This document shows positions 2,281 through 47,426 of a stretch of 64,000 nt of DNA, one piece after another. The notes beneath the pieces were generated by a model. It was not told the origin of the DNA and searched no databases. It was given only the letters and a program-made list of their open reading frames with translations. This DNA is from Onchidella celtica (Eukaryota > Mollusca > Gastropoda > Systellommatophora > Onchidiidae), in NCBI GenBank assembly GCA_963931925.1, contig OZ007575.1:39700846-39764845 (forward strand), written 5' to 3'. The stretch's first letter is position 1. The number at the start of each line of letters is the position of its first letter. The position numbers and the translations under genes are program-made.

Positions 2281-5200
2281 TCACTTTCTCCTCCTCCGCC
2301 TTCTCCTCCTACTGGCTTCTAACAAATCATAATAGTAGTTATAAGATTTTTTATAGTAATCTGCCAGATGATTAAAATACTTTGTTATTTTTGTAGACGT
2401 GTCATTATAAGTGTTGCGCAGAACATCACATCCATATTCATAAGCTTTACGGATATTTCTGTAGGCTATCTTTAAACGAGTGCTGTAGTCAACGTAGCCT
2501 CTCTCTGCTGGGACATACACAACCTCCACTACTCCTCTCACACAATAGCTCCACAGTCTGGATAACTGCTCTAGTGTCTTCCTCAGCATCTCCCTAGCAC
2601 GCCTGTAAGCTTCAACAGCTGTTTCTCTGCTGATATTCATCACATCTTTCACCACTTTATATACAGTCAACTTCACATCAACACCTGTTCTTGGGTCCCC
2701 TGGCACATTTTCACCATTTGGACCAGTGCGAATACCTCTGTAGACAGGGATTCCACCATCTGGGCCTGGCCGGCCAGTGTAATAGAATACAGTTTCATTA
2801 CCTTCCTGAATCCACTGGTGCCAATCTGTCTTTTGAGAGGCATTTCTATCTGGAAGAACCATTCCAGGAACCAACTGTATGCCATTAGGTCCTTTTATGG
2901 GTACTCGTACAATAGGTGGTTTTGTTTTGGATGGGTAAGTTCCTATCCACTTGTTAGGAGACAATATAACCACTCCTTTTGCAGGGCCTCTATAAATAGG
3001 GGGAGCCTTTGTTGTTGGTGTGACAGGCCACTTGGTCAAGAATTCTGCTGTGTGCCACCTATCTGGTTGAAATGTAGTTGACGTTGTTGGTTGCTCAGTT
3101 GCTGTAGGGCGGGTTACTGAATCACTTGAACTAAACCACTTCACAATAACATCGCCCCTGCCATCTTTACGTGTGGTCACCTTGATAGCAGCAGTGAGTG
3201 CTGGCTTTTTGGTCATTAACTGGATTCCACTATCTTTGCCACCAGGAAGAGATGATACTTGTGGGGTACTTTCTGCATGTCCTGCAGTTCTTTCTGTGCG
3301 GTCATCTTCTAAAATGGTTGACACAGTAGTATAAACAAGTGTGGAGACAGTGGAGAAAATATTTGGTAGTGAGGTGGTATCGGCCTCTGTTGTTTTGTCC
3401 CAGGTCTGAGAATCTGGTGCAAAACTGCTTGTTGCGTTTGAACCGAACAAAGAAGAGGTGGACTCTGAAATGTTTGTCTCAGATGTTGAGCTCACATCCT
3501 CCTGAGAGGAAACAGTTGACAATGTGTTAGATAACCATGTCACCATAGTCTGTAGGGTTGTGGTGATGGGGCTTGGGCTGTCTGTACTAGTCGTACTGTC
3601 AAACTCTGTGGTCTGATCTGAGACTGAAGACACACTGGATGTTGTAGTTTCCAAAAGAGGTTTCATAGTAACTGTTTCCATTGCATGGGTTTTAATTTGT
3701 ATTGGTTGTTCTGTTCTAGTGGGTACTGCATCAGAAGAGGCTGTCACTGTGTCGAGTTCTATTACTGGAGGAACCTTTGTAACAAGTTGAATTTGGTCAT
3801 CAGGTGTTTGAAATTTGTCTTGAGTTGTTGGGAAGATCTCCATTGGTTTGAGCGTTACTGTTTCCACTTCATGAGTTTTTAATAGGATTTTCATATCTGT
3901 TGTTGTTGAATACTCAGTATCTATTGATGAAATGGCCGTATCCATCTTCTTGAAAGATGTTGAGCTGTCAGTAGCTACTGCTGTGGTTGGTTTGTCTGAA
4001 AGTGCTGAGGATATGGCTGGCTCAAGAGTCATAGTTTCTACCCCGTGAGTTTCAATGTGTGGTATCACAATGTCAGTTCTACCTTCACTAACACTGACGG
4101 TAGTGGTTGGGGTCTCACTTGTAGAATCAGTTACGTTGGATATGTTAGTGGTTTCAGTTAGGATGGTGCTACTTCCCACCCCTGCAAGGTCTATTGTTGG
4201 TTTTAAAGTCACTCTCTCCATGGGATGAGTTTCAATATGTAAAATGTCAACAGTCTTATTGATAGTCTGTGTTGTCCCATTAGAAGGTGACAGAGATGTC
4301 AGGATGGACACGGTGGTTATATCACTGTCTGTATGTGGCGAGATTGTTGGTTTTAATGTCATGGTCTCTACTTTATGTGTTTCAATGTGCAGAGTGTCAG
4401 TGTCATTAGACTGGCTGACATCTGTAGTGCTTGCATCTGTTGGTTTCAGAGTCATGGTTTCTACTTTGTGTGTTTCAATGTGCAGAGTATCAGTGTCATT
4501 TGTCTGGCTGACATCTGTAGTGCTTGCATCTGTTGGTTTCAGAGTCATGGTTTCTACTTTGTGTGTTTCAATGTGCAGAGTATCAGTATCATTTGTCTGG
4601 CTGATATCTGTAGTGCTTGCATCTGTTGGTTTCAGAGTCATGGTTTCTACTTTGTGTGTTTCAATGTGCAGAGTATCAGTATCATTTGTCTGGCTGACAT
4701 CTGTAGTGCTTGCATCTGTTGGTTTCAGAGTCATGGTTTCTACTTTGTGTGTTTCAATGTGCAGAGTATCAGTATCATTTGTCTGGCTGACATCTGTAGT
4801 GCTTGCATCTGTTGGTTTCAGAGTCATGGTTTCTACTTTGTGTGTTTCAATGTGCAGAGTGTCAGTGTCATTAGTCTGGCTGGCATCTGTAGTACTTGCG
4901 TCTGTTGATTTCAGAGTCATGGTTTCTACTTTGTGTGTTTCAATGTGCAGAGTATCAGTGTCATTAGTCTGGCTGACATCTGAAGTGCTTGCACCTGTTG
5001 GTTTCAGAGTCATGGTTTCTACTTTGTGTGTTTCAATGTGCAGAGTATCAGTATCATTTGTCTGGCTGACATCTGTAGTGCTTGCATCTGTTGGTTTCAG
5101 AGTCATGGTTTCTACTTTGTGTGTTTCAATGTGCAGAGCATCAGTATCATTTGTCTGGCTGACATCTGTAGTGCTTGCATCTGTTGGTTTCAGAGTCATG

Positions 5201-8200
5201 GTTTCTACTTTGTGTGTTTCAATGTGCAGAGCATCAGTATCATTTGTCTGGCTGACATCTGTAGTGCTTGCATCTGTTGGTTTCAGAGTCATGGTTTCCA
5301 CTTTGTGTGTTTCAATGTGCAAAGTGTCAGTGTCATTAGTCTGGCTGGCATCTGTAGTGCTTGCATCTGTTGGTTTCAGAGTCATGGTTTCTACTTTGTG
5401 TGTTTCAATGTGCAGAGTCCCAGAGTCTTCAGTTTGGCTGGTGTCTGTAGTGCTTGCATCTGTTGATTTCAGGGTCATGGTCTCTACTTTATGTGTTTCA
5501 ATATGTAATAGTCCTGTGTCACTGCTGGTTTGTGTAGAACCTTGTGCCTGACCTGTAAAAGAGGTCATTGTGGTTTCATGCTGAATGGCAGTTGTCTCAT
5601 CTTGAATAGGACTAGCTGAGTCAGTTTCAAATTGTGCAGAAGTGGGAGTCAGAGTGCTGAATGTCATGTTTTCTGTATCACTTGTGTCATGCACAGAACT
5701 CAATGTTGTTACTTCAGTACTGTTTCCCTCCATAGCTGTTGCCACTGGTGTCTCTGTGTCTTCAGCAAAGACAGTTGTTGATTTTTCTTTAATTCCTGTG
5801 TGTCTTTCCCACTCTTTGGTGACCCTTTCCCACGGCTTAGTCCGTCTCTCCCACTCCTTTGTGACCCTTTCCCACTCCTTTGTGGGTGGTGCAGTAGTGG
5901 TTGGCCAGCCTGATGTTGAGCTGTCCCATTCATTAGTGTACATAGTTTCAGTTGTGCCCTCCAAACCGATGGTAATAATGCCAAGGCCATCAGCAATCTT
6001 TTGTACTTCTTTATCCTTGGGTAAATCTGCAACATTGTCACTTGACTCTGTCATTTTGTTTATATCACTGTCACTTGGACTAACATCACTTCCTGTCACT
6101 TGCACATCAACAACAGGGGTTGTTGCATTGACATCGGCACTTAACTCCAAACCATCATGTGTAGGAAGTGTAATTTCTTCAGACAATGCCGTTGATGGTA
6201 TTATATCTTTTAGGTGCAGACCATTACTGGTAGTTTCCAAAGGAATAGCTGTTGTTGTTCTTATTTTGTCTGCCTCAGTCACATAATGTTCATGTGTTTC
6301 TTTTGAAGAACTGTCAGTACTAATTCCAGGAGAGGGCTTTCTTGTACACCCTTTTCCTTTTTGACTTAGTACTTCTTTCATTTTAAAAATACTTGAAAGT
6401 ATTGAACCACTCTGCTCATCACCATCAAACTTATTTGTCTCATCACTATCATCTTCACACAAGGCTAGTTCATCTACAATTGATGTTGTAAAGTTCATGT
6501 CATCTACGTCCTGAGCCACTATGGACATATTTGCAGTAACACTGGTTCCATTCTCTGGCGAAAGATCAGTGACACCAACTGTGGTGCTTGATGTCACACC
6601 TTCTTTAGCATTTTCAACCTCTCTTCCATGTCCTTCCCCTGATGGAAGTTCTTCTTCACCAGATATTGTTTCAACCTCACCATCTCCTGATGAAAGTTCT
6701 CCCTCACCAGATACTATCCCTATTTCCCCTTCTCCTGATGGAAGTTCTCCTTCATCAGATGTCTCCACCTCTCCTTCACCAGATACTCTCTCCACGTCTC
6801 CTTCTCCTGATGGAAGTTCTCCTTCACCAAATACAGTCTCCACCTCTCCTTCTCCTGATGGAAGTTTTCCTTCACCAGATACTGTCTCTACTTCTCCTGA
6901 TGGAAGTTCCTCACCAGATACTGTCTCCAACTCTCCTTCTCCTGATAAAAGTTCTCTGTCACCAGATACAGTCTCTTCTTCTCCTTCTCCTGATGGAAGT
7001 TCTACATCACCCGATATAGTCTCAACCTCTCCTTCTCCTGATGGGAGTTCTCCTTCAACTGGCACTGTCTCCAGCTCTCCTTCTCCTGATGGAAGTTCTC
7101 CTACACCAGATGTTGGCACTTGGCCTTCACCAGATATTGTATCCGCCTCTCCTTCTCCAGGTGTAAGTTCGCCTTCACCAGACACTGTCACTACTTCTCT
7201 TTCTCCTGATGGCAGTTCTCCTTCACCAGATATTATATCTACTTCCCCTTCTCCTGATACAAGTTCTCCCTCACCAGATACCGTCTCCACTTCTCCTTCA
7301 CCTGATGGAAGTTCTTCACCAGATGAAGACTCTATTTCCCCTTCTCCTGAGACAAGTTCTCCTTCACCAGATCCTCTCTCCACCTCTCCTTTTCCTGATG
7401 GAAGTTCTCCTTCACCAGATACTGTCTCTACTTCTCCTTCTCCTGATGAAAGTTCTTCCTCACCTGTCTCCACTTCTCCTGATGGAAGTTCTCCTTCACC
7501 AGACACAGTCTCTACTTCTCCATCTCCTGAAGGAGGTTCTCCTTCACCAGATACTATCTCCATCTCTCCTTCTCCTGATGGAAGCTCTCCTTCACCAGAT
7601 ACTCTCTCCATTTCGCCTGATGGAACTTCTCCTTCACCAGATACTATCTCCATTTCTCTTTCACCCGATACAGTCTCTATTTCTTCCTCTCCTGATGGAA
7701 GTTCTCCCTCTCCTGATACTGTCTCCAGCTCTCTTTCATCTGATGGAACTTCTCCTTCACCAGATACTCTCTCCATTTCGCCTGATGGAACTTCTCCTTC
7801 ACCAGATACTATCTCCATTTCTCTTTCACCCGATACAGTCTCTATTTCTTCCTCTCCTGATGGAAGTTCTCCCTCTCCTGATACTGTCTCCAGCTCTCTT
7901 TCATCTGATGGAACTTCTCCTTCACCAGATACTCTCTCCATTTCGCCTGATGGAACTTCTCCTTCACCAGATACTATCTCCATTTCTCTTTCACCCGATA
8001 CAGTCTCTATTTCTTCCTCTCCTGATGGAAGTTCTCCCTCTCCTGATACTGTCTCCAGCTCTCTTTCATCTGATGGAACTTCTCCATCACCAGATACTGT
8101 CTCTATTTCTCCATCTCCCGATGGAAGTTCTCCTTCACCTGATACTGTCGCCAACTCTCTTTCATCTGATGGAACTTCTCCATCACCAGATACAGTCTCT

Positions 8201-11200
8201 ACTTCTCCATCTCCAGATGGAAGTTCTCCTTCGCCAGATACAGTCTCTACTTCTCCTTCTCCTGACGGAAATTCTCCTTCACCAGATATTGTCTCCACCT
8301 CTCCTTCTCCTGATGGAAGTTCTTCCTCACCAGATACTGTCTTCACCTCTTCTTCTCCCAATAGCAGTTCTCCTTCACCAGACACAATCTCTATTTCTCC
8401 ATCTCCTGAAGTAAATTGTCCTTCACCCGATACAGTCTCTATTTCTCCTTCTCCTGATGGAAGTTCTCCTCGACCTGATACTGTCTCCAGCTCTCTTTCA
8501 TCTGATGGAATTTCTCCATCACCAGATAATCTCTCTACTTCTCCATCTCCCGAAGGAAGTTCTCCTTCGCCAGAGACAGTCTCTATTTCTCCTCCTGACG
8601 AAATTTCTCCTTCACCAGATGCCGTCTCTACTTCTCCCGATGGAAGTTCCTCACCAGATACTGTCTCCACCTCTCCTTCTCCTGATGAAAGTTCTCTGTC
8701 ACCGGATACAGTCTCTACTTCTCCATCACCTGAAAGGAATTCTCCTTCACCAGATACTACCTCCATTTCTCCTTCTCCTGATGGCAGTTCTCCTTCACCA
8801 GATGCTCTCTCCACCTTTCCTTCCCCTGATGGAACTTCTCCTTCACCAGATACAATCTCTACTTCTCCTTCTCCTGATGGAAGTTCTATTTCATCAGATT
8901 CTATCTTGCTTTCACCTGATGGAATTTCTCCACCACCAGATACTGTATCTACTTCTCCTTCTCCAGATGGAGTTTCTCCTTCGCCAGATACTGTCTCAAC
9001 TTCACCTTCCTCAGAGGGAGTTTCTCCTTCACCAGATTCTGTTTCAAATTCACCTTCCCCAGAGGGAGTTTCTCCTTCTCCAGATTCTGTCTCAACTTCA
9101 CCTTCCCCAGAGGGAGTTTCTCCTTCACCAGATGCTGTCTCAACTTCACCTTCCCCAGAAGGAGTTTCTCCTTCACCAGATTCTGTCTCAACTTCGCCTT
9201 CCCCAGAGGGGGTTTCTTCTTCACCAGCTGCTGTCTCAACTTCACCTTCCCCAGAAGGAATTTGTCCTTCACCAGACATTGTCTCAACTTCAACTTCCCC
9301 AGAGGGAGTTTCTCCTTCACCAGATACTGTCCCAACTTCACCTTCCCCAGATGGACTTTCTTCTTCGCCAGGTATTGTCTCAACTTCACCTTCCACAGAT
9401 GGAGTTTCTCCTTCACCAGATATTGTGTCAGCTTCACCTTCCCCAGAGGGGGTTTCTTCTTCACCAGATGCTGTCTCAACTTCACCTTCCCCAGATGGAG
9501 TTTCTCCTTCACCAGATGCTGTCTCAACTTCACCTTCCCCAGAGGGAGTTTCTCCTTCACCAGATGCTGTCTCAACTTCACCGTCTCCAGAGGGAGTTTC
9601 TCCTTCACCAGATGTTGTCTCAACTTCGCCTTCCCCAGAGGGGGTTTCTTCTTCACCTGATGCTGTCTCAACTTCACCTTCCCCAGATGGAGTTTCTCCT
9701 TCACCAGATGTTGTCTCAACTTCACCTTCCCCAGAGGGAGTTTCTCCTTCACCAGATACTGTCTCAACTTCACCGTCTCCAGATGGAGTTTCTCCTTCAC
9801 CAGATGTCTCAACTTCGCCTTCCCCAGAAGGGGTTTCTTCTTCACCAGATGCTGTCTCAACTTCACCTTCTCCAGATGGAGTTTCTCCTTCACCAGATGC
9901 TATCTCAAGTTCACCTTCCCCCGATGGATTTTCTCCTTCACCAGACGTTGTCTCAACTTCACCTTCCCCAGATGGACTTTCTTCTTCGCCAGGTATTGTC
10001 TCAGCTTCACCTTCCTCTGATGGAGCTTCTTCACCAGATACTGTCTCAATTTCACCTTCCCCAGATGGAGTTTCTCCTTCACCTGGTGCTGTCTCAACTT
10101 CACCTTCCCCAGATGGACTTCCTTCTTCGCCAGGTATTGTCTCAGCTTCACCTTCCCCAGATGGAGTTTCTTCTTCACCAGATACTGTCTCAATTTCACC
10201 TTCCCCAGATGGAGTTTCTCCTTCACCAGATACTGTCTCAATTTCACCTTCCCCAGATGGACTTCCTTCTTCTCCAGGTATTGTCTCATTTTCACCTTCC
10301 CCAGATGGAGTTTCTCCTTCACCAGATACTGTCCCAAATTCACCTTCCCCAGATGGAGTTTCTCCTTCACCAGATGCTATCTCAACTTCACCTTCCCCTG
10401 ATGGAGTTTCTCCTTTACCAGATGCTGTCTCAACTTCACTTTCCCCTGATGCAGCTTCTTCACCAGATATTGTCTCAACTTCACCTTCCCCAGATGGAGT
10501 TTCTCCTTCACCAGATGCTGCCTCAACTTCACCTTCTTCAGATGGAGTTTCTCCTTCACCAGATGCTGTCTCAACTTCACCTTCCTCAGATGGAGTTTCT
10601 CCTTCACCAGATGCTGTCTCAACTTCACCTTCTCCAGATGGAGTTTCTCCTTCACCAGATACGGTCTCAACTTCACGTTCTCCAGATGGAGTTTCTCCTT
10701 CACCAGATGCTGTCTCAACTTCACCTTCTCCAGAGGGAGTTTCTCCTTCACCAGATACTGTCCCAAATTCACCTTCTCCAGATGGAGTTTCTCCTTCACC
10801 AGATGCTGTCTCAACTTCACCTTCTCCAGAGGGAGTTTCTCCTTCACCAGATGCTGCCTCAAATTCACCTTCCCCAGATGGACTTCCTTCTTCGCCAGGT
10901 ATTGTCTCAGCTTCACCTTCCCCAGATGGAGTTTCTTCTTCACCAGATACTGTCTCAATTTCACCTTCTCCAGATGGAGTTTCTCCTTCACCAGATGCTG
11001 TCTCAACTTCACCTTCTCCAGAGGGAGTTTCTCCTTCACCAGATGCTGCCTCAAATTCACCTTCCCCAGATGGACTTCCTTCTTCGCCAGGTATTGTCTC
11101 AGCTTCACCTTCCCCAGATGGAGTTTCTTCTTCACCAGATACTGTCTCAATTTCACCTTCCCCAGATGGAGTTTCTCCTTCACCAGATACTGTCTCAATT

Positions 11201-14200
11201 TCACCTTCCCCAGATGGACTTCCTTCTTCTCCAGGTATTGTCTCATTTTCACCTTCCCCAGATGGAGTTTCTCCTTCACCAGATACTGTCCCAAATTCAC
11301 CTTCCCCAGATGGAGTTTCTCCTTCACCAGATGCTGTCTCAACTTCACCTTCCCCTGATGGAGTTTCTCCTTTACCAGATGCTGTCTCAACTTCACTTTC
11401 CCCTGATGCAGCTTCTTCACCAGATATTGTCTCAACTTCACCTTCCCCAGATGGAGTTTCTCCTTCACCAGATGCTGCCTCAACTTCACCTTCCCCAGAT
11501 GGAGCTTCTCCATCACCAGGTGCTGTCTCAACTTCACCTTCCCCAGATGGAGTTTCTCCTTCACCAGATGCTGCCTCAACTTCACCTTCTTCAGATGGAG
11601 TTTCTCCTTCACCAGATGCTGTCTCAACTTCACCTTCCTCAGATGGAGTTTCTCCTTCACCAGATGCTGTTTCAACTTCACCTTCTCCAGATGGAGTTTT
11701 TCCTTCACCAGATACTGTCTCAACTTCACGTTCTCCAGATGGAGTTTCTCCTTCACCAGATGCTGTCTCAACTTCACCTTCTCCAGAGGGAGTTTCTCCT
11801 TCACCAGATACTGTCCCAAATTCACCTTCTCCAGATGGAGTTTCTCCTTCACCAGATGCTGTCTCAACTTCACCTTCTCCAGAGGGAGTTTCTCCTTCAC
11901 CAGATGCTGCCTCAACTTCACCTTCCTCAGATGGAGTTTCTGCTTCACCAGATGCTGCCTCAACTTCACCTTCTTCAGATGGAGTTTCTCCTTCACCAGA
12001 TGCTGTCTCAACTTCACCTTCCTCAGATGGAGTTTCTCCTTCACCAGATGCTGTCTCAACTTCACCTTCTCCAGATGGAGTTTTTCCTTCACCAGATGCT
12101 GACTCAACTTCACCTTCTCCAGAGGGAGTTTCTCCTTCACCAGATACTGTCCCAAATTCACCTTCTCCAGATGGAGTTTCTCCTTCACCAGATGCTGTCT
12201 CAACTTCACCTTCTCCAGATGGAATTTCTTCTTTGCTAGGTACTGTCTCAACTTCACCTTCTCCAGATGGAGTTTCACCTTCACCAGATGCTGTCTGAAC
12301 TTCACCTTCCCCAGATGGAGTTTCTCCTTCACCAGATGCTGTCTCAACTTCACCTTCTCCAGATGGAGTTTCGCCTTCACCAGATGCTGTCTCAACTTCA
12401 CCTTCTCCAGATGGAGTTTCACCTTCACCAGATGCTGTCTCAACTTCACCTTCTCCAGATGGAGTTTCACCTTCACCAGATGCTGTCTCAACTTCACCTT
12501 CTCCAGATGGAGTTTCACCTTCACCAGATGCTGTCTCAACTTCACCTTCCCCAGATGGAGTTTTACCTTCACCAGATGCTGTCTCAATTTCACCTTCCCC
12601 AGATGGAGTTTCTCCTTCACCAGATGCTGTCTCAACTTCACCATCTCCAGATGGAATTTCACCTTCACCAGATACTGTCTCAACTTCACCGTCTCCAGAT
12701 GGAATTTCACCTTCACCTGATGCTGTCTCGATTTCACCTTCCCCAGATGGAGTTTCTCCTTCACCAGATGCTGTCTCAACTTCACCGTCTCCAAATGGAA
12801 TTTCACCTTCACCAGATACTGTCTCTTCACCTTTCCCAGATGGAGTTTCTCCTTCACCAGATGCAGTCTCAACTTCACCTTCCCCAGAGGGAGTTTCTCC
12901 TTCACCAGAAGCTGTCTCAACTTCACCTTCCCCTGATGGAGCTTCTCGTTCACCAGATGCTGTCTCAATTTCACCTTCCCCAGATGGAATTTCTCCTTCA
13001 CCAGATGCTGTCTCAGCTTCACCTTCCCCTGATGGAGTTTCTCCTTCACCAGATGCTGCCTCAACTTCACCTTCCCCAGGGGGAGCTTCTTCTTCGCCAG
13101 ATGCTGTCTCAACTTCACCTTCCCCAGATGGAATTTCTACTTCGCCAGATGCTGTCTGAACTTCACCTTCCCCAGATGGAGTTTCTCCTTCACCAGATGC
13201 TGTCTCAATTTCACCTTCCCCAGAAGCTATCTCAACTTCACCTTCCCCGGATGGAGTTTCTCCTTCACCAGATGCTGTCTCACCTTCCCCAGAGGGAGTT
13301 TCTTCTTCGCCAGATGCTGTCTCAACTTCACCTTCCCCAGATGGAGTTTCTACTTCGCCAGATGCTGTCTCAACTTCACTTTCCCCAGATGGAGTTTCTC
13401 CTTCACCAGATTCTGTCTCAATTTCACCTTCCCCAGAAGCTGTCTCAACTTCACCTTCCCCAGATGGAATTTCACCTTCACCAGATGCTGTCTCAATTTC
13501 ATTTTCCCCTGATGGAGCTTCTCCTTCACCAGATGCTGTCTCAACTTCATCTTCTCGAGATGGAGTTTCACCTTCACCAGATGCTGTCTCAAGTTCACCT
13601 TCCCCAGATGGACTTTTTCCTTCACCAGATGCTGTCTCAATTTCACCTTCGCCAGAGGGAGTTTCTTCTTCACCAGATGCTGTCTCAACTTCACCTTCCC
13701 TAGAGGGAGTTTCTTCTTCACCAGATGCTGTCTCAATTTCACCTTCCCCAGATGGACTTTCTCCTTCACCAGATGCTGTCTCAATTTCACCTTCCCCAGA
13801 GGGAGTTTCTCCTTCACCAGATGCTGTCTCAACTTCACTTTCCCCAGATGGAGTTTCTCCTTCACCAGATGCTGTCTCAATTTCACCTTCCTCAGAAGCT
13901 GTCTCAACTTCACCTTCCCCAGATGGAGTTTCTCCTTCACCAGATGCTGTCTCAATTTCACCTTCCCCAGAAGCTGTCTCAACTTCACCTTCCTCAGATG
14001 GAGTTTCTCCTTCGCCAGATGCCGTCTCAGCTTCACCTTCCCCAGACAGAGTTTCTCTTTCACCAGATGCTGTCTCAACTTCACCTTCCCTAGAGGGAGT
14101 TTCTTCTTCACCAGATGCTGTCCCAACTTCATCTTCCCTAGATGGAGTTTCCTCTTCACCAGGTGTTGTTTCAACTTCACCTTCTTCTGGATAATCCATA

Positions 14201-14709
14201 TTACTTGAATCTGTTTCAATAGTTGGGAACTGACTTTGGTCTTCAAAAATCTTTCGTACAGTTTCTTTTTCAGTACCAACTGTGGCTGGAACAGAAGGTT
14301 TGGAGGTTGTTGCATAAACTATAGTGTAATGCAAGTATCTATCATCTGTCACTTTTGAAAATGGGCTTGTTTCGTCTGTTGTGTTGATCAACTCCGTGCT
14401 CACAGTAGATGTCATGCTTTCATTTATGTTGTTCATGGCTGAGCTGGTTTCTTGTGTAAGGAAACTTGAAGATTCAGTTACAACAGTATTATCCACATCT
14501 TCAGATGACTGCACAAGCATGGTCGTGGGTGTCATGGTTTCCCCTGAAATGGTTCCAATTTTGTCACTGACAGTGGTCATTACTGGTGACTCAAAAGTTA
14601 TTTCTGTTGTTTCTACTTGAGTTGTACTCGCTAACTCCTGGGTTGATAGTTCATCTGCTTGAGTACTTTCCTCCATGCCGCTCGTCTGTGTTGAGACTGT
14701 TGGCTCAAC
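2281..14709 (-). CDS. Terminal exon: giant SG-rich acidic repeat protein, C-terminal 4,142 residues
   Basis: One uninterrupted coding exon of 12,429 bases. The frame is open to an ATG at 14808, but a good acceptor (gattttccag) at 14709 fits the preceding exon in phase 0. In order: a Ser/Thr-rich, mucin-like stretch (14709-14200); acidic SGEGE repeats (14190-6632); a mixed segment; a four-fold KEWER motif (about 5884-5806); thirteen Thr-rich repeats (5510-4345) and degenerate copies to about 3670; short GPxG motifs (about 2990-2690); a basic helix-prone, Tyr-rich C-terminus with two Cys; and a final Arg8-Lys. No hydrophobic segment long enough for a membrane span is seen, so secretion is inferred. 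I recognise no named family. Proteoglycan core or extracellular-matrix/mucus component is the best guess. Confidence 0.88.
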   Translation of the reverse strand, partial: VEPTVSTQTSGMEESTQADELSTQELASTTQVETTEITFESPVMTTVSDKIGTISGETMTPTTMLVQSSEDVDNTVVTESSSFLTQETSSAMNNINESMTSTVSTELINTTDETSPFSKVTDDRYLHYTIVYATTSKPSVPATVGTEKETVRKIFEDQSQFPTIETDSSNMDYPEEGEVETTPGEEETPSREDEVGTASGEEETPSREGEVETASGERETLSGEGEAETASGEGETPSEEGEVETASGEGEIETASGEGETPSGEGEVETASEEGEIETASGEGETPSGESEVETASGEGETPSGEGEIETASGEGESPSGEGEIETASGEEETPSREGEVETASGEEETPSGEGEIETASGEGKSPSGEGELETASGEGETPSREDEVETASGEGEAPSGENEIETASGEGEIPSGEGEVETASGEGEIETESGEGETPSGESEVETASGEVETPSGEGEVETASGEEETPSGEGETASGEGETPSGEGEVEIASGEGEIETASGEGETPSGEGEVQTASGEVEIPSGEGEVETASGEEEAPPGEGEVEAASGEGETPSGEGEAETASGEGEIPSGEGEIETASGEREAPSGEGEVETASGEGETPSGEGEVETASGEGETPSGKGEETVSGEGEIPFGDGEVETASGEGETPSGEGEIETASGEGEIPSGDGEVETVSGEGEIPSGDGEVETASGEGETPSGEGEIETASGEGKTPSGEGEVETASGEGETPSGEGEVETASGEGETPSGEGEVETASGEGETPSGEGEVETASGEGETPSGEGEVETASGEGETPSGEGEVQTASGEGETPSGEGEVETVPSKEEIPSGEGEVETASGEGETPSGEGEFGTVSGEGETPSGEGEVESASGEGKTPSGEGEVETASGEGETPSEEGEVETASGEGETPSEEGEVEAASGEAETPSEEGEVEAASGEGETPSGEGEVETASGEGETPSGEGEFGTVSGEGETPSGEGEVETASGEGETPSGEREVETVSGEGKTPSGEGEVETASGEGETPSEEGEVETASGEGETPSEEGEVEAASGEGETPSGEGEVETAPGDGEAPSGEGEVEAASGEGETPSGEGEVETISGEEAASGESEVETASGKGETPSGEGEVETASGEGETPSGEGEFGTVSGEGETPSGEGENETIPGEEGSPSGEGEIETVSGEGETPSGEGEIETVSGEEETPSGEGEAETIPGEEGSPSGEGEFEAASGEGETPSGEGEVETASGEGETPSGEGEIETVSGEEETPSGEGEAETIPGEEGSPSGEGEFEAASGEGETPSGEGEVETASGEGETPSGEGEFGTVSGEGETPSGEGEVETASGEGETPSGEREVETVSGEGETPSGEGEVETASGEGETPSEEGEVETASGEGETPSEEGEVEAASGEGETPSGEGEVETISGEEAASGESEVETASGKGETPSGEGEVEIASGEGETPSGEGEFGTVSGEGETPSGEGENETIPGEEGSPSGEGEIETVSGEGETPSGEGEIETVSGEEETPSGEGEAETIPGEEGSPSGEGEVETAPGEGETPSGEGEIETVSGEEAPSEEGEAETIPGEEESPSGEGEVETTSGEGENPSGEGELEIASGEGETPSGEGEVETASGEEETPSGEGEVETSGEGETPSGDGEVETVSGEGETPSGEGEVETTSGEGETPSGEGEVETASGEEETPSGEGEVETTSGEGETPSGDGEVETASGEGETPSGEGEVETASGEGETPSGEGEVETASGEEETPSGEGEADTISGEGETPSVEGEVETIPGEEESPSGEGEVGTVSGEGETPSGEVEVETMSGEGQIPSGEGEVETAAGEEETPSGEGEVETESGEGETPSGEGEVETASGEGETPSGEGEVETESGEGETPSGEGEFETESGEGETPSEEGEVETVSGEGETPSGEGEVDTVSGGGEIPSGESKIESDEIELPSGEGEVEIVSGEGEVPSGEGKVERASGEGELPSGEGEMEVVSGEGEFLSGDGEVETVSGDRELSSGEGEVETVSGEELPSGEVETASGEGEISSGGEIETVSGEGELPSGDGEVERLSGDGEIPSDERELETVSGRGELPSGEGEIETVSGEGQFTSGDGEIEIVSGEGELLLGEEEVKTVSGEEELPSGEGEVETISGEGEFPSGEGEVETVSGEGELPSGDGEVETVSGDGEVPSDERELATVSGEGELPSGDGEIETVSGDGEVPSDERELETVSGEGELPSGEEEIETVSGEREMEIVSGEGEVPSGEMERVSGEGEVPSDERELETVSGEGELPSGEEEIETVSGEREMEIVSGEGEVPSGEMERVSGEGEVPSDERELETVSGEGELPSGEEEIETVSGEREMEIVSGEGEVPSGEMERVSGEGELPSGEGEMEIVSGEGEPPSGDGEVETVSGEGELPSGEVETGEEELSSGEGEVETVSGEGELPSGKGEVERGSGEGELVSGEGEIESSSGEELPSGEGEVETVSGEGELVSGEGEVDIISGEGELPSGEREVVTVSGEGELTPGEGEADTISGEGQVPTSGVGELPSGEGELETVPVEGELPSGEGEVETISGDVELPSGEGEEETVSGDRELLSGEGELETVSGEELPSGEVETVSGEGKLPSGEGEVETVFGEGELPSGEGDVERVSGEGEVETSDEGELPSGEGEIGIVSGEGELSSGDGEVETISGEEELPSGEGHGREVENAKEGVTSSTTVGVTDLSPENGTSVTANMSIVAQDVDDMNFTTSIVDELALCEDDSDETNKFDGDEQSGSILSSIFKMKEVLSQKGKGCTRKPSPGISTDSSSKETHEHYVTEADKIRTTTAIPLETTSNGLHLKDIIPSTALSEEITLPTHDGLELSADVNATTPVVDVQVTGSDVSPSDSDINKMTESSDNVADLPKDKEVQKIADGLGIITIGLEGTTETMYTNEWDSSTSGWPTTTAPPTKEWERVTKEWERRTKPWERVTKEWERHTGIKEKSTTVFAEDTETPVATAMEGNSTEVTTLSSVHDTSDTENMTFSTLTPTSAQFETDSASPIQDETTAIQHETTMTSFTGQAQGSTQTSSDTGLLHIETHKVETMTLKSTDASTTDTSQTEDSGTLHIETHKVETMTLKPTDASTTDASQTNDTDTLHIETHKVETMTLKPTDASTTDVSQTNDTDALHIETHKVETMTLKPTDASTTDVSQTNDTDALHIETHKVETMTLKPTDASTTDVSQTNDTDTLHIETHKVETMTLKPTGASTSDVSQTNDTDTLHIETHKVETMTLKSTDASTTDASQTNDTDTLHIETHKVETMTLKPTDASTTDVSQTNDTDTLHIETHKVETMTLKPTDASTTDVSQTNDTDTLHIETHKVETMTLKPTDASTTDISQTNDTDTLHIETHKVETMTLKPTDASTTDVSQTNDTDTLHIETHKVETMTLKPTDASTTDVSQSNDTDTLHIETHKVETMTLKPTISPHTDSDITTVSILTSLSPSNGTTQTINKTVDILHIETHPMERVTLKPTIDLAGVGSSTILTETTNISNVTDSTSETPTTTVSVSEGRTDIVIPHIETHGVETMTLEPAISSALSDKPTTAVATDSSTSFKKMDTAISSIDTEYSTTTDMKILLKTHEVETVTLKPMEIFPTTQDKFQTPDDQIQLVTKVPPVIELDTVTASSDAVPTRTEQPIQIKTHAMETVTMKPLLETTTSSVSSVSDQTTEFDSTTSTDSPSPITTTLQTMVTWLSNTLSTVSSQEDVSSTSETNISESTSSLFGSNATSSFAPDSQTWDKTTEADTTSLPNIFSTVSTLVYTTVSTILEDDRTERTAGHAESTPQVSSLPGGKDSGIQLMTKKPALTAAIKVTTRKDGRGDVIVKWFSSSDSVTRPTATEQPTTSTTFQPDRWHTAEFLTKWPVTPTTKAPPIYRGPAKGVVILSPNKWIGTYPSKTKPPIVRVPIKGPNGIQLVPGMVLPDRNASQKTDWHQWIQEGNETVFYYTGRPGPDGGIPVYRGIRTGPNGENVPGDPRTGVDVKLTVYKVVKDVMNISRETAVEAYRRAREMLRKTLEQLSRLWSYCVRGVVEVVYVPAERGYVDYSTRLKIAYRNIRKAYEYGCDVLRNTYNDTSTKITKYFNHLADYYKKSYNYYYDLLEASRRRRRRRRK
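4345..5510 (-). repeat. 93-bp coding tandem repeat, 13 copies
   Basis: Period 93 bases (31 residues). The unit core is HIETHKVETMTLKPTDASTT followed by a DVSQTNDTDT-type segment. Thirteen close copies are followed toward the C-terminus by four degenerate ones (ETHPMERVTLKP, ETHGVETMTLEP, KTHEVETVTLKP, KTHAMETVTMKP) to about 3670. Units are rich in Thr and in His/Glu/Thr. Each spacer also carries an Asn-Asp-Thr. Confidence 0.93.
5806..5884 (-). repeat. TKEWERV motif, four copies
   Basis: A short in-frame repeat of about 21 bases gives TKEWERV, TKEWERR, TKPWERV and TKEWERH in a row between the acidic array and the Thr-rich repeats. It is charged with a conserved Trp. Function unknown. Confidence 0.8.
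7601..8095 (-). repeat. 165-bp higher-order repeat, three copies
   Basis: Inside the SGEGE array a 165-base (55-residue) block recurs three times head to tail, starting near 7601, 7766 and 7931, and the copies look almost identical. Each encodes DERELETVSGEGELPSGEEE plus flanking SGEGE variants. This marks recent unequal exchange. Confidence 0.85.
10105..11690 (-). repeat. 957-bp-offset segmental duplication within the array
   Basis: Landmark variants recur at a fixed spacing of 957 bases (319 codons): for example acttccttcttctcc at 10261 and 11218, and ttcccctgatgcagc at 10441 and 11398. The arrangement of variant units around them is shared, so a block of several units was duplicated in frame. 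Exact limits were not determined. Confidence 0.75.
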
Positions 14710-15654: not shown

Positions 15655-15716
15655 CTTATCAGTTTGTATCCCAGAAAGAGGTGTGCTTGCATCCAGTTGT
15701 ACCTCACATTGTTTGC
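15655..15716 (-). CDS. Linker exon joining EGF 10 to the repeat exon
   Basis: A 62-base exon, acceptor ttttgacag and donor gtaaac, reading SKQCEVQLDASTPLSG then IQTDK. It supplies the sixth Cys of EGF 10 (KQCEVQ, as in TGxxCE of other repeats) and changes phase from 1 to 0, which is what the giant exon needs. Joining the previous exon directly to 14709 would hit TGA at once. This is the key link between the Notch-ligand head and the repeat tail. It is short, so transcript support would be valuable. Confidence 0.78.
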
Positions 15717-17607: not shown

Positions 17608-17778
17608 TTGTAAATCCAGCAGGACACTTGCAGAAAAAGTCATCTATTTGGTCAATGCAACTCCCTCCATTTTCACATGGCTGGGTCTCACATTCATCAA
17701 TTTCTGTCTCACACATGTCGCCAGTGTATCCTCCACTACAGCTACATGCAAACGTGTCATACATGTTCAAGCAGGTAC
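17608..17778 (-). CDS. Exon: EGF 9 end and EGF 10
   Basis: A 171-base phase 1-1 exon. It completes EGF 9 (GTCLNMYDTFACSC, GGYTGDMC) and encodes EGF 10 (IDECETQPCENGGSC, FFCKCPAGFT). EGF 10 has the IDEC calcium-binding start. The donor is gtaaga. The last Cys of EGF 10 comes from the 62-base linker exon. Confidence 0.92.
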
Positions 17779-18656: not shown

Positions 18657-18836
18657 CTCTATTCTGACAAGGTTGTGATCTGCAGAAGTTAACATCCACT
18701 GTACAAGTTTTGCCCCTGAAGTAAGTTGGGCATTCACATGTAAAATCACTACCTGATCCAGGACGACATGTGCCACCATTTTTACATGGGCGGGCATCAC
18801 AGGGATCTATTGTTATAAAGATCTCACACATGGGGC
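18657..18836 (-). CDS. Exon: EGF 7 end, EGF 8, half of EGF 9
   Basis: A 180-base phase 1-1 exon. It closes EGF 7 with PMC, encodes EGF 8 (CDARPCKNGGTC, FTCECPTYFRGKTC) and starts EGF 9 (NFCRSQPCQNRG). The acceptor is catattttcag and the donor gtaact. Confidence 0.92.
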
Positions 18837-19313: not shown

Positions 19314-19427
19314 TGTCAGTCCCTGGAGGACATGTACATGTGAAGCCATCCTCTGTCCCCGTGCATGTTCCACCATTCTGACATGGATTGCTGCGGCATT
19401 TGTCAATAAATTCCTCACAATTGACAC
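19314..19427 (-). CDS. Exon: EGF 6 end and EGF 7
   Basis: A third 114-base phase 1-1 exon. It closes EGF 6 with VNC and encodes EGF 7 ([26 protein letters not shown]). The donor is gtaagg. It is separated from the preceding exon by a 5.75-kb intron filled with nested LINE remnants. Confidence 0.92.
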
Positions 19428-25177: not shown

Positions 25178-25291
25178 CCCTTGTTTGATCTGTGCACAGA
25201 CATTTGTAGTGCAGGTGTAAGTCCAAACATAAGCCACCATTCTGGCAGGGGTTACTGTCACATTCATTGGTCTCATGCTCACATCTGTCAC
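25178..25291 (-). CDS. Exon: EGF 5 end and EGF 6
   Basis: A 114-base phase 1-1 exon. It closes EGF 5 with DRC and encodes EGF 6 ([26 protein letters not shown]). The last loop, TDQTRG, departs from the usual P-x-G-F/Y pattern. The acceptor is ccgtgtag and the donor gtaagt. Confidence 0.92.
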
Positions 25292-25613: not shown

Positions 25614-25727
25614 CATAGAATCCATCTGGACACTGGCACACAAAAGTATCGCCTTCGCTAGCACAAGCACCATTGTTGAGGCAGGGATCACTGTCACAAA
25701 TGTTTATTTTCCTGTCACAATTTTTAC
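25614..25727 (-). CDS. Exon: EGF 4 end and EGF 5
   Basis: A 114-base symmetrical phase 1-1 exon. It closes EGF 4 with KNC and encodes EGF 5 (INICDSDPCLNNGAC, FVCQCPDGFYG). The acceptor is tattttgcag and the donor gtgagc. Confidence 0.92.
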
Positions 25728-29788: not shown

Positions 29789-29963
29789 CAGTATATCCAG
29801 TCTGACAGATACATATGTAACTTCCACCAGGGATGTTCTCACACCATATCATATTCACACAGGGTTTGTCGGCGCAACTGTTTTGACTCTTGTTACAAAA
29901 CTGTCCAGTGTAACCTTCTTCACATAAGCAGGTGTCTTTGCCTCTTATACTGGTACAAAGACC
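29789..29963 (-). CDS. Exon: rest of EGF 3 and most of EGF 4
   Basis: Begins GLCTSIRGKDTCLC in phase 0, completing EGF 3 with EEGYTGQFC. EGF 4 (SCADKPCVNMIWC, YICICQTGYTG) runs to a phase-1 donor gtgtgt. EGF 4 is divergent, with Met-Ile-Trp where most repeats carry N-G-G. The acceptor is ctgattgtag. Confidence 0.88.
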
Positions 29964-31381: not shown

Positions 31382-31548
31382 ATGGTCACATAAGTCTTTG
31401 GCACACTGGACAATTTTGGTCTCACATAAGTGACCAGCCCAGCCTTGTGGGCATTGACAGGAAAACCCGTTGAATTCATCAGTGCAGGTCGCGCCATTCT
31501 GACAAGGTAGACTGGCACATTCATTAATTTCACCATCACAGTAAACAC
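31382..31548 (-). CDS. Exon: EGF 1 end, EGF 2, start of EGF 3
   Basis: Encodes VYC from EGF 1, all of EGF 2 (INECASLPCQNGATC, CQCPQGWAGHLC), and the first two cysteines of EGF 3 (QCAKDLCDH). EGF 2 carries the I-N-E-C start typical of calcium-binding EGF modules. The donor is gttagt, phase 0. This is the only EGF in the gene split by a phase-0 intron. Confidence 0.9.
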
Positions 31549-33906: not shown

Positions 33907-34029
33907 CTGTTCTGCCTGGTGGGCACTTGCATGAGTAATAACCAATCTGATCTATGCATGTAGCTCCTTCATAGCATCGATTACCATAGCAGTCATCAAG
34001 ATTTTTTGTACAGTTTGGTCCTGCCCAAC
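33907..34029 (-). CDS. Exon: DSL end and EGF repeat 1; GC donor
   Basis: Completes the DSL domain with GWAGPNC and encodes EGF 1 (C-YGNR-C, CIDQIGYYSCKC, PPGRTG). The exon must end at 33907 on a GC donor (ACAG followed by gcaagt), because only this join gives GGT (Gly) and the expected RTGVYC across to the next exon. A GT site nine bases downstream would create an odd Cys and break the EGF pattern. EGF 1 lacks the DOS pattern seen in EGF 1-2 of typical Delta and Jagged. Confidence 0.88.
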
Positions 34030-34426: not shown

Positions 34427-34563
34427 CAAGAAGACATATTTTTTCTCCACTAACTGGGTTACACATGTAGTGGCCTTGATGATCATCCCTGGCTCTGCAG
34501 TAGCGTGCACAATCAGGACCAAAATAATATGGGTTACAGTAGACTAACAGTTCAGCATCCAGT
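34427..34563 (-). CDS. Exon: DSL (Delta/Serrate/LAG-2) domain
   Basis: Encodes most of a DSL domain, the module through which Notch ligands contact Notch EGF11-12. The motif YYFGPDCARYCRARDDHQGHY aligns with the canonical Y-Y-x-G-x-x-C-x-x-x-C-R-x-R-D-D-x-x-GHY core, and all six DSL cysteines are present once the next exon adds WAGPNC (44 residues, residues 165-208). The two residues after RDD are H and Q, where vertebrate ligands carry F or A followed by F. The second Phe is part of the Notch-binding face in JAG1. The acceptor is tatttcag and the donor gtatgt, phase 1. Confidence 0.95.
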
Positions 34564-34897: not shown

Positions 34898-35052
34898 GTG
34901 GTAACTGCACCAATCAGACGGAGTTTTTGCGGACGAGCATCAATCCTTCTTCTCATGACACCAGGTACATACTGGTAGTCAAAGTGGTCAATGAAGTCAT
35001 AAGTGTCTCCTTCATCTTCATCATAAATGTCAATTTTCAGCTTGGCCACGCC
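34898..35052 (-). CDS. Exon: MNNL to DSL connecting segment
   Basis: Encodes 51 residues plus two bases. It begins GVAKLKIDIYDEDE, the equivalent of the strand after the WP motif in Delta and Jagged (…SLIIEA…). Through QKLRLIGAV it leads to the start of the DSL domain. It is acidic in its first half, with a DEDEGD cluster. The acceptor is tttcaaag and the donor gtaagta. The trailing AC is completed by A from the next exon to give Thr. Confidence 0.87.
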
Positions 35053-37551: not shown

Positions 37552-37681
37552 AGGCCACGTATTGAAAGGAAATCTGAGGGGGTTTGCAATACCTCCAATA
37601 TCTCTGCCGAACTTGATGTAGTTTTCTGATATTGGCTTCGACTTCCTGAGACCATAGTCGCATGAAGCCATAGAACTGGAC
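37552..37681 (-). CDS. Exon: second half of MNNL domain
   Basis: Encodes 43 residues after one phase base. The C-x-YG motif and the stretch NPLRFPFNTWP match the strand of Delta and Jagged proteins written NPIRFPF...WP, part of the membrane-binding C2-like MNNL fold. The acceptor follows a ttattcaacag context and the donor is gtgagt. The antisense and alternative sense frames are also open here, but only this frame gives family similarity and correct phase with both neighbours. It is separated from the preceding exon by an intron of about 9.6 kb that holds a Gypsy retrotransposon. Confidence 0.88.
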
Positions 37682-38435: not shown

Positions 38436-38446
38436 TTCCTCCCCCC
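38436..38446 (-). other. Polypurine tract
   Basis: On the minus strand GGGGGGAGGAA directly precedes the 3' LTR, the expected plus-strand primer site. Confidence 0.8.
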
Positions 38447-39022: not shown

Positions 39023-40100
39023 TTACAAATACAAGGTTAATTTATCAGGAGCTTTTCTGATTCTGTCAGATCTTCTGAGAGGAGCTAGTTCACTGCTTTT
39101 ACTTTGTTTTGGTTCAGAATGAACAATATTTGACTTTTTGTTACTAATCTCATAATTTGAGCTCTCCTGCACCTTTTCTGGCTCTTGCACAACACTACTT
39201 GGTGCAGTTTTTGAAATTTGCTCTGGTAATGTCACTGATTGATCTGAAACCATTGTTTTCTCTTCCTCCCCCATAGATGAATGTGGTAAGGTTTGAGGTG
39301 AAGTAGACTCAAATTGGGAGTTTGAGGAGTACCTAGGCTTTAGCTGGTTAGCATGGCGTCGGATAAGACCTTGTTCTTTAGTTGTCACATTGAATGAAAC
39401 TGGTCCAGTTTTTGTAGTTACAACTCCTGGAACCCAAGGTTCACCATGAGCAGAGTAATTTCTTACAAAGACATCATCATTGATATCAATTTGTCTGTCC
39501 TTGCAGTTGCTGTCATAGTACAGTTTTTGTTTTGTTTTGTGCTCATTTACAGTTTGATAAAAATCAGGAAATAACAAATCTAAGTGTGTTTTCATTCTTC
39601 TACCTAGGAGTAATTCTGATGGTGTTACACCTGTGGTTGTATGTGGAGTGATTCTGTATTGTGTGAGAAATCTCAAAACTTTTTCTTCAATTGGACCTTT
39701 ATGAGACATTTTTCTCATAGCACTTTTTAATGTTTGAACAGCCTTTTCTGCTGCCCCATTAGTAGAGGGATGAAAAGGAGCAGAAGTTACATGTTTCACA
39801 CCATTTCTTTTGAGAAAGTTCCGGAATTTCTCACTTGTGAATGTGGGACCATTGTCAGAAACAATGCATTCCGGCAAGCCAAAGTTTGCAAAAATGCCTC
39901 GCAACTGAAAAATTGTATTTTCAGCAGTAATGTTTGTCATGACTTTTACATCAAGCCATTTTGAAAATGGATCCACAAGAACTAAGAACATGTGACCCAT
40001 AAAAGGCCCAGCAAAATCAATGTGCAATCTTAACCAGGGGCCTGCAGGCAAACTCCATGGATGCAAAGGAACCTTTGGTGGGGTATTTTGATGTTTCTGG
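39023..40100 (-). pseudogene. Gypsy integrase, separated by a frameshift
   Basis: Continues pol in another frame: HIDFAGPFMGHMFLVLVDPF, IVSDNGPTFTSEKF and HPSTNGAAEKAVQTLK carry the D, D and E of the integrase core. The C-terminal part has LLLGRRMKTHLD and a Ser/Lys-rich tail ending in KAPDKLTLYL. No chromodomain is seen. Confidence 0.88.
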
Positions 40101-40103
40101 CAT

Positions 40104-45200: not shown

Positions 45201-45304
45201 CTCGGCTGTTCGCTGCTAAGGCCCTGCCAGAAGAAGGTGTAGTTTTCTTCTTTGACTGACCCGGAGTCGGGAAGTCGAGTTTCTTGAAGGGCAGCGATGT
45301 AAGT
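42263..45304 (-). mobile_element. LINE with endonuclease-reverse transcriptase ORF, in frame with gag
   Basis: About 1,010 residues: an apurinic-type endonuclease beginning at AALQETRLPDSG (its first strands are missing), with ILGDFNARVGADHSAWP and DTDHALVVSKI; a reverse transcriptase with GFRSKRSTIDMIFALRQI, SGVKQGCVLAPTLFGI and the intact LLFADDAAIVAH box; a thumb with LLYGSETW; and a C-terminal zinc-finger-like CNHCHRTLGSN with HERSC before TGA at 42263-42265. The ORF has no stop or frameshift. The clade is uncertain; it is the common invertebrate EN-RT type with LQETR and GDFN motifs. Confidence 0.88.
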
Positions 45305-46243
45305 GGAGCCAAGAGAATACAGTTCATACGATGTCTCATCAGTAAATGACGATGGCTGATCCAAACCTTGATCAAGTTGGTGTTGTCTGAAGGTTGTTGC
45401 TGTAGATCTAGGCCTGGAGTTAGATGTATTGTTCAGAGTGGCTGAACCCTGTTTAGGGGAATGTTTAGGTTTAGACCCCAATCTACTTACTCTCTTAATA
45501 TGTCCTCGTTTGCCACAGGTATGACATACATCATCACGAAACTTACAGAATTGTCTCTTATGGTTGTCCCCACAAATTTTACAAGATGAGTAAGAACGAG
45601 AAGTAGTTGTAGGTCTACTAGTAGGCTGAGCATTGAATTTAGAAGACTTCGTGAAGTTGATTGACGAAGCTGAATTGGAAGGATCGGCTGAAGGTTTATT
45701 TTCAAAAGAACGAACACCTTTGTTGGAATCCATCATGAAGTGAGCCAGTGACATTGCCTTGGATGAGGTTAGATTATCTTCTTGGAGGAGTTTACGTTGT
45801 ATGGGACCATCATTTACACCCATAACAAATCTGTCCAGTAATCTTTCATTAAGCGAGTCGCCGAACTGGCAAAATTCAGTCAATTTTTTTAAGGCAACAA
45901 AAAAGTCTTGAACTGATTCATTATGGTATCTGATCCTTTCTTCAAATTGTTTCCGTTGGACAAACTTAGGTGGAGTAGGATTGAAGTGGTTTGTTAACAG
46001 GTTGCAAAGTTCTGAGTAAGTTTTGTCTCTTGCACTTTGAGGGAAACACAGATCTTTAATAATGCGGAAAGTCGAGGGACCCACTACAGTGAGTAGGATA
46101 GCACGTTGTTTAGAAACATCTGTGACATTATTAGCCTCAAAGTAGAAATTGAGACGTTCTTGGTATTCAACAAACGGAGTGTCTGAAGAGTATGGCTCAA
46201 GATTGCCAAACAGCATGGTCGAAGCAGACGATGTCGATGTCAT
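45305..46243 (-). CDS. Gypsy gag (capsid and zinc knuckle), truncated by LINE insertion
   Basis: Starts at the ATG giving MTSTSSASTMLFGNLEPY. Capsid-like region includes FVEYQERLNFYFEANNV, LLTNHFNPTPPKFVQRKQF and a coiled segment. A CCHC-type knuckle region follows (CKICGDNHKRQFCKFRDDVC, HTCGKRGHIKRV). The frame then runs into YELYSLGS, where LINE protein begins. Gag normally binds and packages element RNA. An upstream in-frame extension into the LTR is unlikely to be used. Confidence 0.88.
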
Positions 46244-46267
46244 GGCCAGTCTAGAGCTCGTCGCCAA

Positions 46268-46485
46268 ATGTTGTATCTTGTGCAGGACACAGAACTTCAG
46301 AATGAAAGAACTCAAAAACACGTGTGTACTGACTTGGCATCTTTTTAATCACCTCCCAAAACCGTCGTTGCATCAGAAACATTTGCCTACTCACCACGGA
46401 ATGTGTAAAGGAACATAACTCCACAGTTAAGAATACAACATCTCTAAAATGAGTTAAGTCCCCTGATCTGATCTGATACATTACA
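46268..46485 (-). repeat. 5' LTR of the Gypsy element
   Basis: Starts and ends TG...CA when read on the plus strand. Nearly identical to 38219-38435, including tgttgtatcttgtgcaggac at one edge and ctgatctgatctgatacatt near the other. Confidence 0.95.
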
Positions 46486-47244
46486 GTCACATTTTAATGA
46501 AAGGAGTGTCAGTACGTAAGAAACCCCTTAGTTTTCTTAAAAATGCAATGAGTTATTTTTGTTTGTTGCTTTGTTTTTGTTGTTGTTTTCTTTATAAACT
46601 CGACACTCCTGTTTCTAAGTGTGTTGGATTCTTTCACAGGCACCATACAGCGAAGGCAGCCTATGTAGCAAACTACAAGCTGGACAACACGTACGTAGCT
46701 GTTGCAAGAACAGCTGGAGGCAAAATCATAGATTTTCACCTTCAGGGCTATCATGGATGGTGTCCTACCCCACCCACAGAATCTACATAGTATATTTGCT
46801 CTCCAAATTAAAATTCTGATGTTGCAAATAATGTTCTGCACTTACTTAAATAATACGTGACTTATTACTTTGTCACATGGATTCTGAAATGCCGCTCTTG
46901 ATACTATTCCTTCTTGATATGATTCGAGGGAGTGGGCTACGTGTGAGTGGGTATGTTTTGGTGGGGGGGGGGGGGGGGGCTACAATATTTGCATAATTGT
47001 AATTTGCCTAATAAAGCTAGATGACACTCAGCAGAAGGATATATTAGCGAAGGAAAACACCTTTTGCGTGCCATTTAATAACAGATAAAGTCACTAGAAA
47101 TACACACAGAAAGTATACATGTACTTTGTATACGGAAGATAACATATAGTTCGGATTAGTATTAATTTTCATTACACTCAGGGTCAGCTGGCCTTAGCTC
47201 TTTCCTTATTCTGTAGGACGATAAAAACGATGCAGCCCACTCAC
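46486..47244 (-). other. Intron between Gypsy and first MNNL exon
   Basis: Ordinary intron DNA with a run of about 17 G near 46962-46978. Small ORFs on both strands lack family resemblance. Confidence 0.55.
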
Positions 47245-47426
47245 TGTGTATCATTTCCCAAACAAATGTGGAAGACATGTTGACAAGAATCACATTCGTC
47301 ACTAGAAGAAAACCAGCTCCATCCTGATGAATCACAGCACTGGTTGCCTCTCTTTCTGCCTTCAGCATTATTGAAACTCAGTAGACGGAGTTCAACCTCG
47401 CCCTCGCCCTGGCTGGTTGGGCACAG
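47245..47426 (-). CDS. Exon: first half of MNNL domain of the DSL gene
   Basis: Encodes 60 residues plus two bases. The reading GEGEVELRLLSFNN followed by GNQCC and ending in HVFHICLGNDT matches the start of the Notch-ligand N-terminal (MNNL) domain, where an F-E-L strand is followed by a Cys pair and an F-x-x-C-L motif. The acceptor is a cttggcag context and the donor is gtgagt. The two trailing bases CA are completed by G from the next exon to give Gln. The frame is open upstream to an ATG at 47447, but that start gives no signal peptide, so I treat this as an internal exon in phase 0. Confidence 0.85.

Follow-up and report, generated by a model that had tools for sequence, protein, structure and literature searches.

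In a 64,000-nucleotide (nt) window of the Onchidella celtica genome (the whole stretch analysed here, contig OZ007575.1, positions 39,700,846 to 39,764,845) we found a minus-strand gene in which a chain of 14 exons joins the head domains of a Notch ligand (MNNL, DSL and EGF domains) to a giant tail of repeated acidic Ser-Gly motifs, with no transmembrane segment in the chain. The reading that we favour, to which as a whole we assign a probability of about 0.42, is that the gene encodes a secreted DSL-proteoglycan that modulates Notch-type signalling extracellularly, and that it is one of a locally expanded, non-canonical set of DSL-EGF genes. If this holds, a signal that cells normally keep on their surface may be located in matrix or mucus instead.

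Gene model and DSL-family head

Coordinates are positions within the window, and the gene model was drawn from the genomic sequence alone. The chain runs from 47426 to 2281 and consists of the following exons (E), with a possible end signal beyond them:

47245..47426, minus strand: E1, first part of MNNL (Notch-ligand N-terminal C2-like domain)
37552..37681, minus strand: E2, middle of MNNL
34898..35052, minus strand: E3, end of the C2-like domain
34427..34563, minus strand: E4, DSL domain (Pfam PF01414, E 2.7e-14), aligned to Jagged-1, Delta, DLL1, DLL4 and Serrate chains
33907..34029, minus strand: E5, end of DSL (GWAGPNC) and EGF1, an ordinary EGF and not of the DOS type; GC-AG intron next
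31382..31548, minus strand: E6, EGF2 and start of EGF3
29789..29963, minus strand: E7, remainder of EGF3 and most of EGF4
25614..25727, minus strand: E8, phase 1-1, end of EGF4 and most of EGF5
25178..25291, minus strand: E9, phase 1-1, end of EGF5 and most of EGF6
19314..19427, minus strand: E10, phase 1-1, end of EGF6 and most of EGF7
18657..18836, minus strand: E11, end of EGF7, EGF8 and start of EGF9
17608..17778, minus strand: E12, remainder of EGF9 and most of EGF10
15655..15716, minus strand: E13, last cysteine of EGF10 and a short linker, phase 1 in and phase 0 out
2281..14709, minus strand: E14, giant tail exon, 4,142 codons and the stop
1490..1495, minus strand: AATAAA, possible poly(A) signal 786 nt past the stop (a second AATAAA starts at 1114)

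The phases agree throughout and the only stop in 14,253 nt is the terminal one (2281), as had been claimed for all fourteen exons in the original prediction. Every exon is preceded by an AG acceptor (14 of 14), and the donors are GT in 12 of 13 cases and GC in the remaining one, after E5. The window holds no runs of N, and an assembly gap was dropped as an explanation on that ground. EGF10 (residues 560-591, CETQPC...TSKQC) is split across E12 and E13: E12 lacks the final cysteine, E13 supplies it, and E13 then passes in phase 0 into the phase 0 of E14, which bears out the earlier observation that the last EGF is completed by an exon entering the repeat exon in frame. With a matrix built from the other 13 acceptors, the acceptor at 14709 scored 8.3, a value equalled or exceeded by 49 of the strand's 4,470 AGs. 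Of the 60 AGs between E13 and 14709 (14709 included), no other high-scoring one opens a long phase-0 frame in the 945 bp after E13; the single AG with a better score (15406, 8.9) opens just two codons. Length alone is weak evidence for the frame, because several frames of the repeat array are open, on both strands; what decided the reading frame was its continuity with the EGF exons together with splice signals and the lack of stops, rather than a synonymous-codon test. On these signals the chain from E1 to E14 probably forms one transcript.

The MNNL domain matches PF07657 with 63.2 bits against a cut-off of 22.5 (E 2.6e-17) when residues 1-166 are searched alone, and was unlisted in the search with the whole head; the DSL domain matches PF01414 with 53.6 bits against a cut-off of 24.2. 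Together, the two can be aligned with solved Delta-like 1, Delta, Jagged-1 and Serrate chains. Ten EGFs, encoded by exons 5-13, fit the six-cysteine pattern, and we counted six O-fucose, five O-glucose and five hydroxylation motifs over them. The predicted composition of MNNL, DSL and ten EGFs was thereby recovered in full and, judging from these matches, the head is a genuine DSL-family head. In Jagged1 the DSL residues that contact Notch are F199, R201, R203, D205 and F207 (PMC3415683); the equivalents here, by alignment to Jagged1, are Y, R, R, D and Q, three of the five being identical and the change of F199 to Tyr conservative. A search of the protein database with residues 1-212 gave 217 candidates, none significant. 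DSL-EGF1 gave eight pattern matches in genome_contigs, none confirmed, a miss that says little because that collection is bacterial and archaeal.

The best 19-residue hydropathy mean in the chain is 1.05, and we infer that the product is secreted. The earlier description as apparently secreted thus agrees with the chain itself, but has to be set against a candidate for a membrane-anchored isoform at 1985-1866, which is weighed below.

Repeat tail and candidate glycosaminoglycan sites

The tail encoded by E14 begins with a Ser/Thr-rich linker, continues with an SGEGE domain of about 2,500 residues and then with Ser/Thr-rich stretches and a 31-residue array, and ends in a non-repetitive C-terminus; an open reading frame (ORF) of another kind lies beyond its stop:

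6520..14085, minus strand: SGEGE repeat domain in E14, 16-residue (48-nt) unit, Ser-Gly spacing mostly 7 and 9 residues, borders approximate
4345..5502, minus strand: Thr-rich 31-residue array (93 nt x 12.5)
2284..3069, minus strand: non-repetitive C-terminal part, ending in R8K, with a low-confidence helical prediction
1866..1985, minus strand: downstream hydrophobic ORF with an acceptor-like site at 1983, a possible alternative membrane-anchor exon, or chance

No Pfam family was found in the 4,142 residues at E 0.1 and cysteine makes up 0-1% of each part. An AlphaFold prediction of the last 270 residues, made with no alignment, had a mean predicted local distance difference test score (pLDDT) of 45.9; the composition and the repeats suggest that the tail is disordered. 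The last 238 residues have one match in the genome, which is themselves.

There are 286 Ser-Gly pairs in the chain, 281 of them in E14, and 253 of the 286 stand in an acidic context (at least two acidic residues among the six before), 202 of those also as SGxG. The chain has 1,054 acidic residues against 175 basic ones. In human urinary chondroitin-sulfate sites the serine is preceded by acidic residues and lies in disordered or low-complexity sequence (PMC10424144). Since the acidic-context Ser-Gly pairs resemble these human sites, substitution with glycosaminoglycan (GAG) is likely, and many of the Ser-Gly sites of the tail are likely to carry GAG chains. The SGEGE part is probably a chondroitin-sulfate-bearing, that is, a proteoglycan domain, followed by mucin-like Thr-rich stretches. 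Of the former label "proteoglycan- or mucin-like", the proteoglycan side is in line with the acidic Ser-Gly repeats, the GAG chains themselves being candidates only.

Differences between repeat units are most frequent at the third codon position (0.115, 0.137 and 0.214 for the three positions). Over 105 units, synonymous differences make up a share of 0.382 in the reading frame and of 0.16 in both shifted minus-strand frames, compared with 0.124, 0.377 and 0.16 in the three antisense frames. The test fits coding, but it cannot choose the strand because one antisense frame gives 0.377. On the plus strand a 1,927-codon open frame (6515-12298) crosses the SGEGE repeats antisense and is probably an effect of repeat composition.

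Possible function and alternative readings

The favoured reading would come about as follows. Tandem duplication would have extended the stretch after the last EGF to a tail of about 4,140 residues, which would hold the molecule in matrix or mucus, and a DSL head kept there would modulate Notch-type signalling from outside the cell. Notch must be pulled to be activated, so that its ligands compete and inhibit when soluble and activate when immobilised (PMC7613405). A head on a giant negatively charged tail might thus act as a mobile or matrix-bound antagonist or as an anchored activator: a competitor when mobile, possibly an activator when fixed. The direction of the effect on Notch is not fixed by the sequence. 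No evidence was found that bears on the shell-forming secretion which the original prediction named beside matrix and mucus. The more specific statement that a Notch-family ligand has turned into a secreted chondroitin-sulfate proteoglycan of giant size, on which about 250 sites are candidates for GAG, so that matrix or mucus carries a Notch-binding head, is doubtful. The possibility deserves attention because Notch is the textbook contact-dependent pathway, in which activation needs a ligand that resists pulling (PMC7613405). If the reading is correct, the animal, which still keeps canonical-looking ligands, would have a Notch signal or sink that is cell-free and mechanically anchored, and would thereby offer a natural test of a matrix presenting or burying Notch signals in vivo, comparable to the immobilised ligands of engineers; the stalk of a signalling protein would have become a proteoglycan core through repeat expansion within one exon.

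Several results weigh against this reading, and they are given here together with the alternatives on which they bear. The gene model contains neither a start codon nor a secure signal-peptide exon: a scan of 16.6 kb gave five start-donor pairs with three distinct donors, the best of which, also the nearest to E1 (47766-47665), is weak and made of pyrimidine- and CA-rich repeats (microsatellite). For the C-terminus of the tail, 1,342 candidates in the protein database included no significant homolog, and 36 pattern matches in genome_contigs and three in viral_contigs were all unconfirmed, which again says little because these collections are bacterial and archaeal, and viral, respectively. The donor of E13 is weak (747 of the 3,627 GTs score equally well), read-through past E13 would add 24 further codons before a stop, and one AATAAA (14983) within the E13-E14 intron could be used by an early end. 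Together with in-frame Met codons at 14808, 14739 and 14676, this would fit two genes, namely a DSL-EGF gene with a short secreted end shortly beyond 15,655, and another gene, for the repeat protein, that starts near 14,800-14,700. We consider such a split improbable. E13 ends in a donor that needs a phase-0 partner and 14709 is the sole high-scoring acceptor with a long frame to provide it, the AATAAA hexamer is frequent anyway (51 on the strand, 0.8 per kb), and the Met codons come without a signal-peptide-like segment (best 11-residue mean 1.2), so that a start codon of the tail's own was dropped or left weak as a candidate; the interval 17607-14710 yielded no phase-0 first exon with a signal-peptide-like segment that could open a tail gene of its own. 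A giant membrane-anchored ligand, whose stalk would be followed by a transmembrane segment from an alternative or unmodelled 3' exon, is also unlikely, though less so. The candidate, the ORF 1985-1866 located 3' of the stop, has a 19-residue mean of 2.85 and could give a membrane anchor; segments of at least 2.8 occur 0.03 times per kb on the minus strand and 0.12 times per kb on the plus strand, and the acceptor-like site at 1983 ranks 12th of 4,470. A search of the last 3 kb of E14 for phase-matched donors scoring at least 3.5 gave 3221 and 2519. These score low, however (4.4 and 3.7), joining them to 1983 would lose an open C-terminal coding part, the ORF lies in AT-rich 3' sequence and is almost devoid of basic stop-transfer residues, and it is not the only hydrophobic ORF 3' of the stop, though the others are weaker. 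On C6 (36.19 Mb) a non-canonical DSL gene likewise has a Thr-rich stalk exon with a transmembrane-like ORF (mean 3.38) about 3.5 kb further on, but its stalk-to-transmembrane junction is out of phase as read. Two other places for a transmembrane exon were tried: the E13-E14 intron, left weak with one hydrophobic ORF at 1.95, and the 10 kb 3' of the window, where at a cut of 2.3 one ORF only was found, a low-complexity isoleucine run.

The results that bear most directly on signalling concern the head. With the DOS consensus taken from PMC11162419, as well as with a looser short-loop pattern run beside it, no DOS-type EGF1-2 was found after the DSL domain in residues 1-620, and PF21795 and PF21700 stayed below cut-off in the head. 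The looser pattern is the fairer test, because in another DSL gene of the same genome (L002), used as a control, the strict pattern misses too and the looser one matches in one place. The gene therefore differs from canonical ligands in two tested features, having neither the DOS-type EGF pair nor a transmembrane segment in its chain. In addition, the F207 equivalent is a non-conservative Gln. Because of the missing DOS-type EGFs and this Gln, Notch binding is uncertain and may be weak or lost, and the head would work at best like a modified Notch ligand; the "Notch-binding head" of the original prediction keeps the R201, R203 and D205 equivalents in its favour and is otherwise in doubt. These same features suggest a single secreted proteoglycan- or mucin-like protein whose head is inactive on Notch, that is, a structural matrix or mucus protein with a relic or repurposed head, for instance for adhesion. 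Loss of the contact face is indeed common among non-canonical DSLs of the genome, of which four others keep 0, 0, 2 and 1 of R201/R203/D205. Here, however, all three are kept together with the MNNL domain, and the change at F207 alone need not mean loss of function because a C7 gene with a short-loop EGF has Leu there. We regard such a structural protein as rather unlikely, and rank it next after extracellular modulation of Notch.

Related genes, neighbouring features and known systems

Six-frame searches of the genome (1.14 Gb, 43 contigs) gave 15 DSL matches, some of which are several domains of one ORF, and five MNNL places, the gene in the window being included in both counts. Two ligands were recognised by MNNL and DSL only: at C3:67.03-67.07 Mb a canonical-looking Delta, and at C3:75.61-75.68 Mb another with an RPRDD-F face. 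At C7:21.85 Mb a further DSL gene has retained R, R and D; its 207 site is occupied by Leu, and its DSL domain is followed by a short-loop EGF. Among seven aligned DSL sequences, the one most similar to that in the window is a domain of a multi-DSL ORF on C5, which agrees with it at 26 of 44 positions; the other five agree with it at 18 to 21 of 45-46 positions. This C5 ORF (L004, C5:43737557-43740694) is open over 930 codons and contains EGFs and Thr-rich linkers besides its three DSL matches. DSL genes on C6 (36.19 Mb; 40.39-40.47 Mb) resemble the gene in the window in that a DSL domain is followed directly by ordinary EGFs and a Ser/Thr-rich stretch, but their stalks are short (about 50-200 residues) and without SGEGE repeats in the stretches read, compared with 4,142 residues here; their exon chains are partly worked out, and one has a downstream transmembrane-like ORF. 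At C6:40.42-40.51 Mb we observed a cluster of three DSL matches, two of which, when read, were near-copies of a DSL-EGF-Ser/Thr-stalk gene, one with duplicated EGF and stalk exons.

Within the window, intron 1 contains nested retroelements on the minus strand (39026-46348), with a gypsy-type element (reverse transcriptase, RNase H and integrase) and a neighbouring open frame of 1,361 amino acids with the endonuclease and reverse transcriptase of a non-LTR (long terminal repeat) element and a start that is gag-like by eye. Intron 9 holds a plus-strand frame with a non-LTR-type reverse transcriptase (20564-21829), which shares DUF6451 with the intron 1 frame. An acidic open frame at the left end of the window (2-364, minus strand) is, by look only, perhaps a transposase start. 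Rfam and tRNA scans of the window gave no matches.

With the Delta/Delta-like and Jagged/Serrate ligands the gene shares MNNL, DSL, the EGF series, an end-to-end DSL alignment and the R201/R203/D205 equivalents, and it differs from them in the absence of DOS-type EGF1-2, in Gln for F207, in the lack of a transmembrane segment in the chain and in its tail of 4,142 residues. The VWC/cysteine-rich domain that follows the EGFs in Jagged was not found in this tail, given its low cysteine content and the Pfam result at E 0.1. The original prediction took DSL proteins to be normally membrane ligands and knew of no protein with this layout; secreted ones have nevertheless been described, C. elegans DSL-1 (PMC3415683) being a precedent. 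A study of lophotrochozoan Notch genes describes a transmembrane-less Delta2 in molluscs, which terminates early and is shorter than Delta1 (PMC8166818); it is likewise a DSL-EGF protein that ends before a transmembrane segment, and no giant tail is mentioned in the passages that describe it. The same study reports tandem-DSL genes without EGFs from bivalves only; the C5 multi-DSL ORF falls outside that class as defined because it has EGFs. C. elegans DSL-1 and the DOS proteins (PMC3415683, PMC11162419) are likewise secreted ligands or coligands of the Notch pathway, but DSL-1 has one EGF and the DOS proteins have no DSL, and a GAG-repeat tail goes unmentioned for either in the passages concerned. 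Aggrecan-type proteoglycans likewise have many acidic-context Ser-Gly pairs, and the 281 pairs of the tail exceed the approximately 100 chondroitin-sulfate chains of aggrecan (PMC4106107), the GAG sites here being candidates only. The head is different; the globular domains of aggrecan are not among the domains found here, the tail being without a Pfam match. Among the papers listed in searches of the open-licence literature, from which most subscription papers are missing, none showed a giant GAG tail on a DSL protein. Chondroitin-sulfate proteoglycans are a known kind of molecule, as are secreted DSL proteins, and what appears to be new is their union in one protein.

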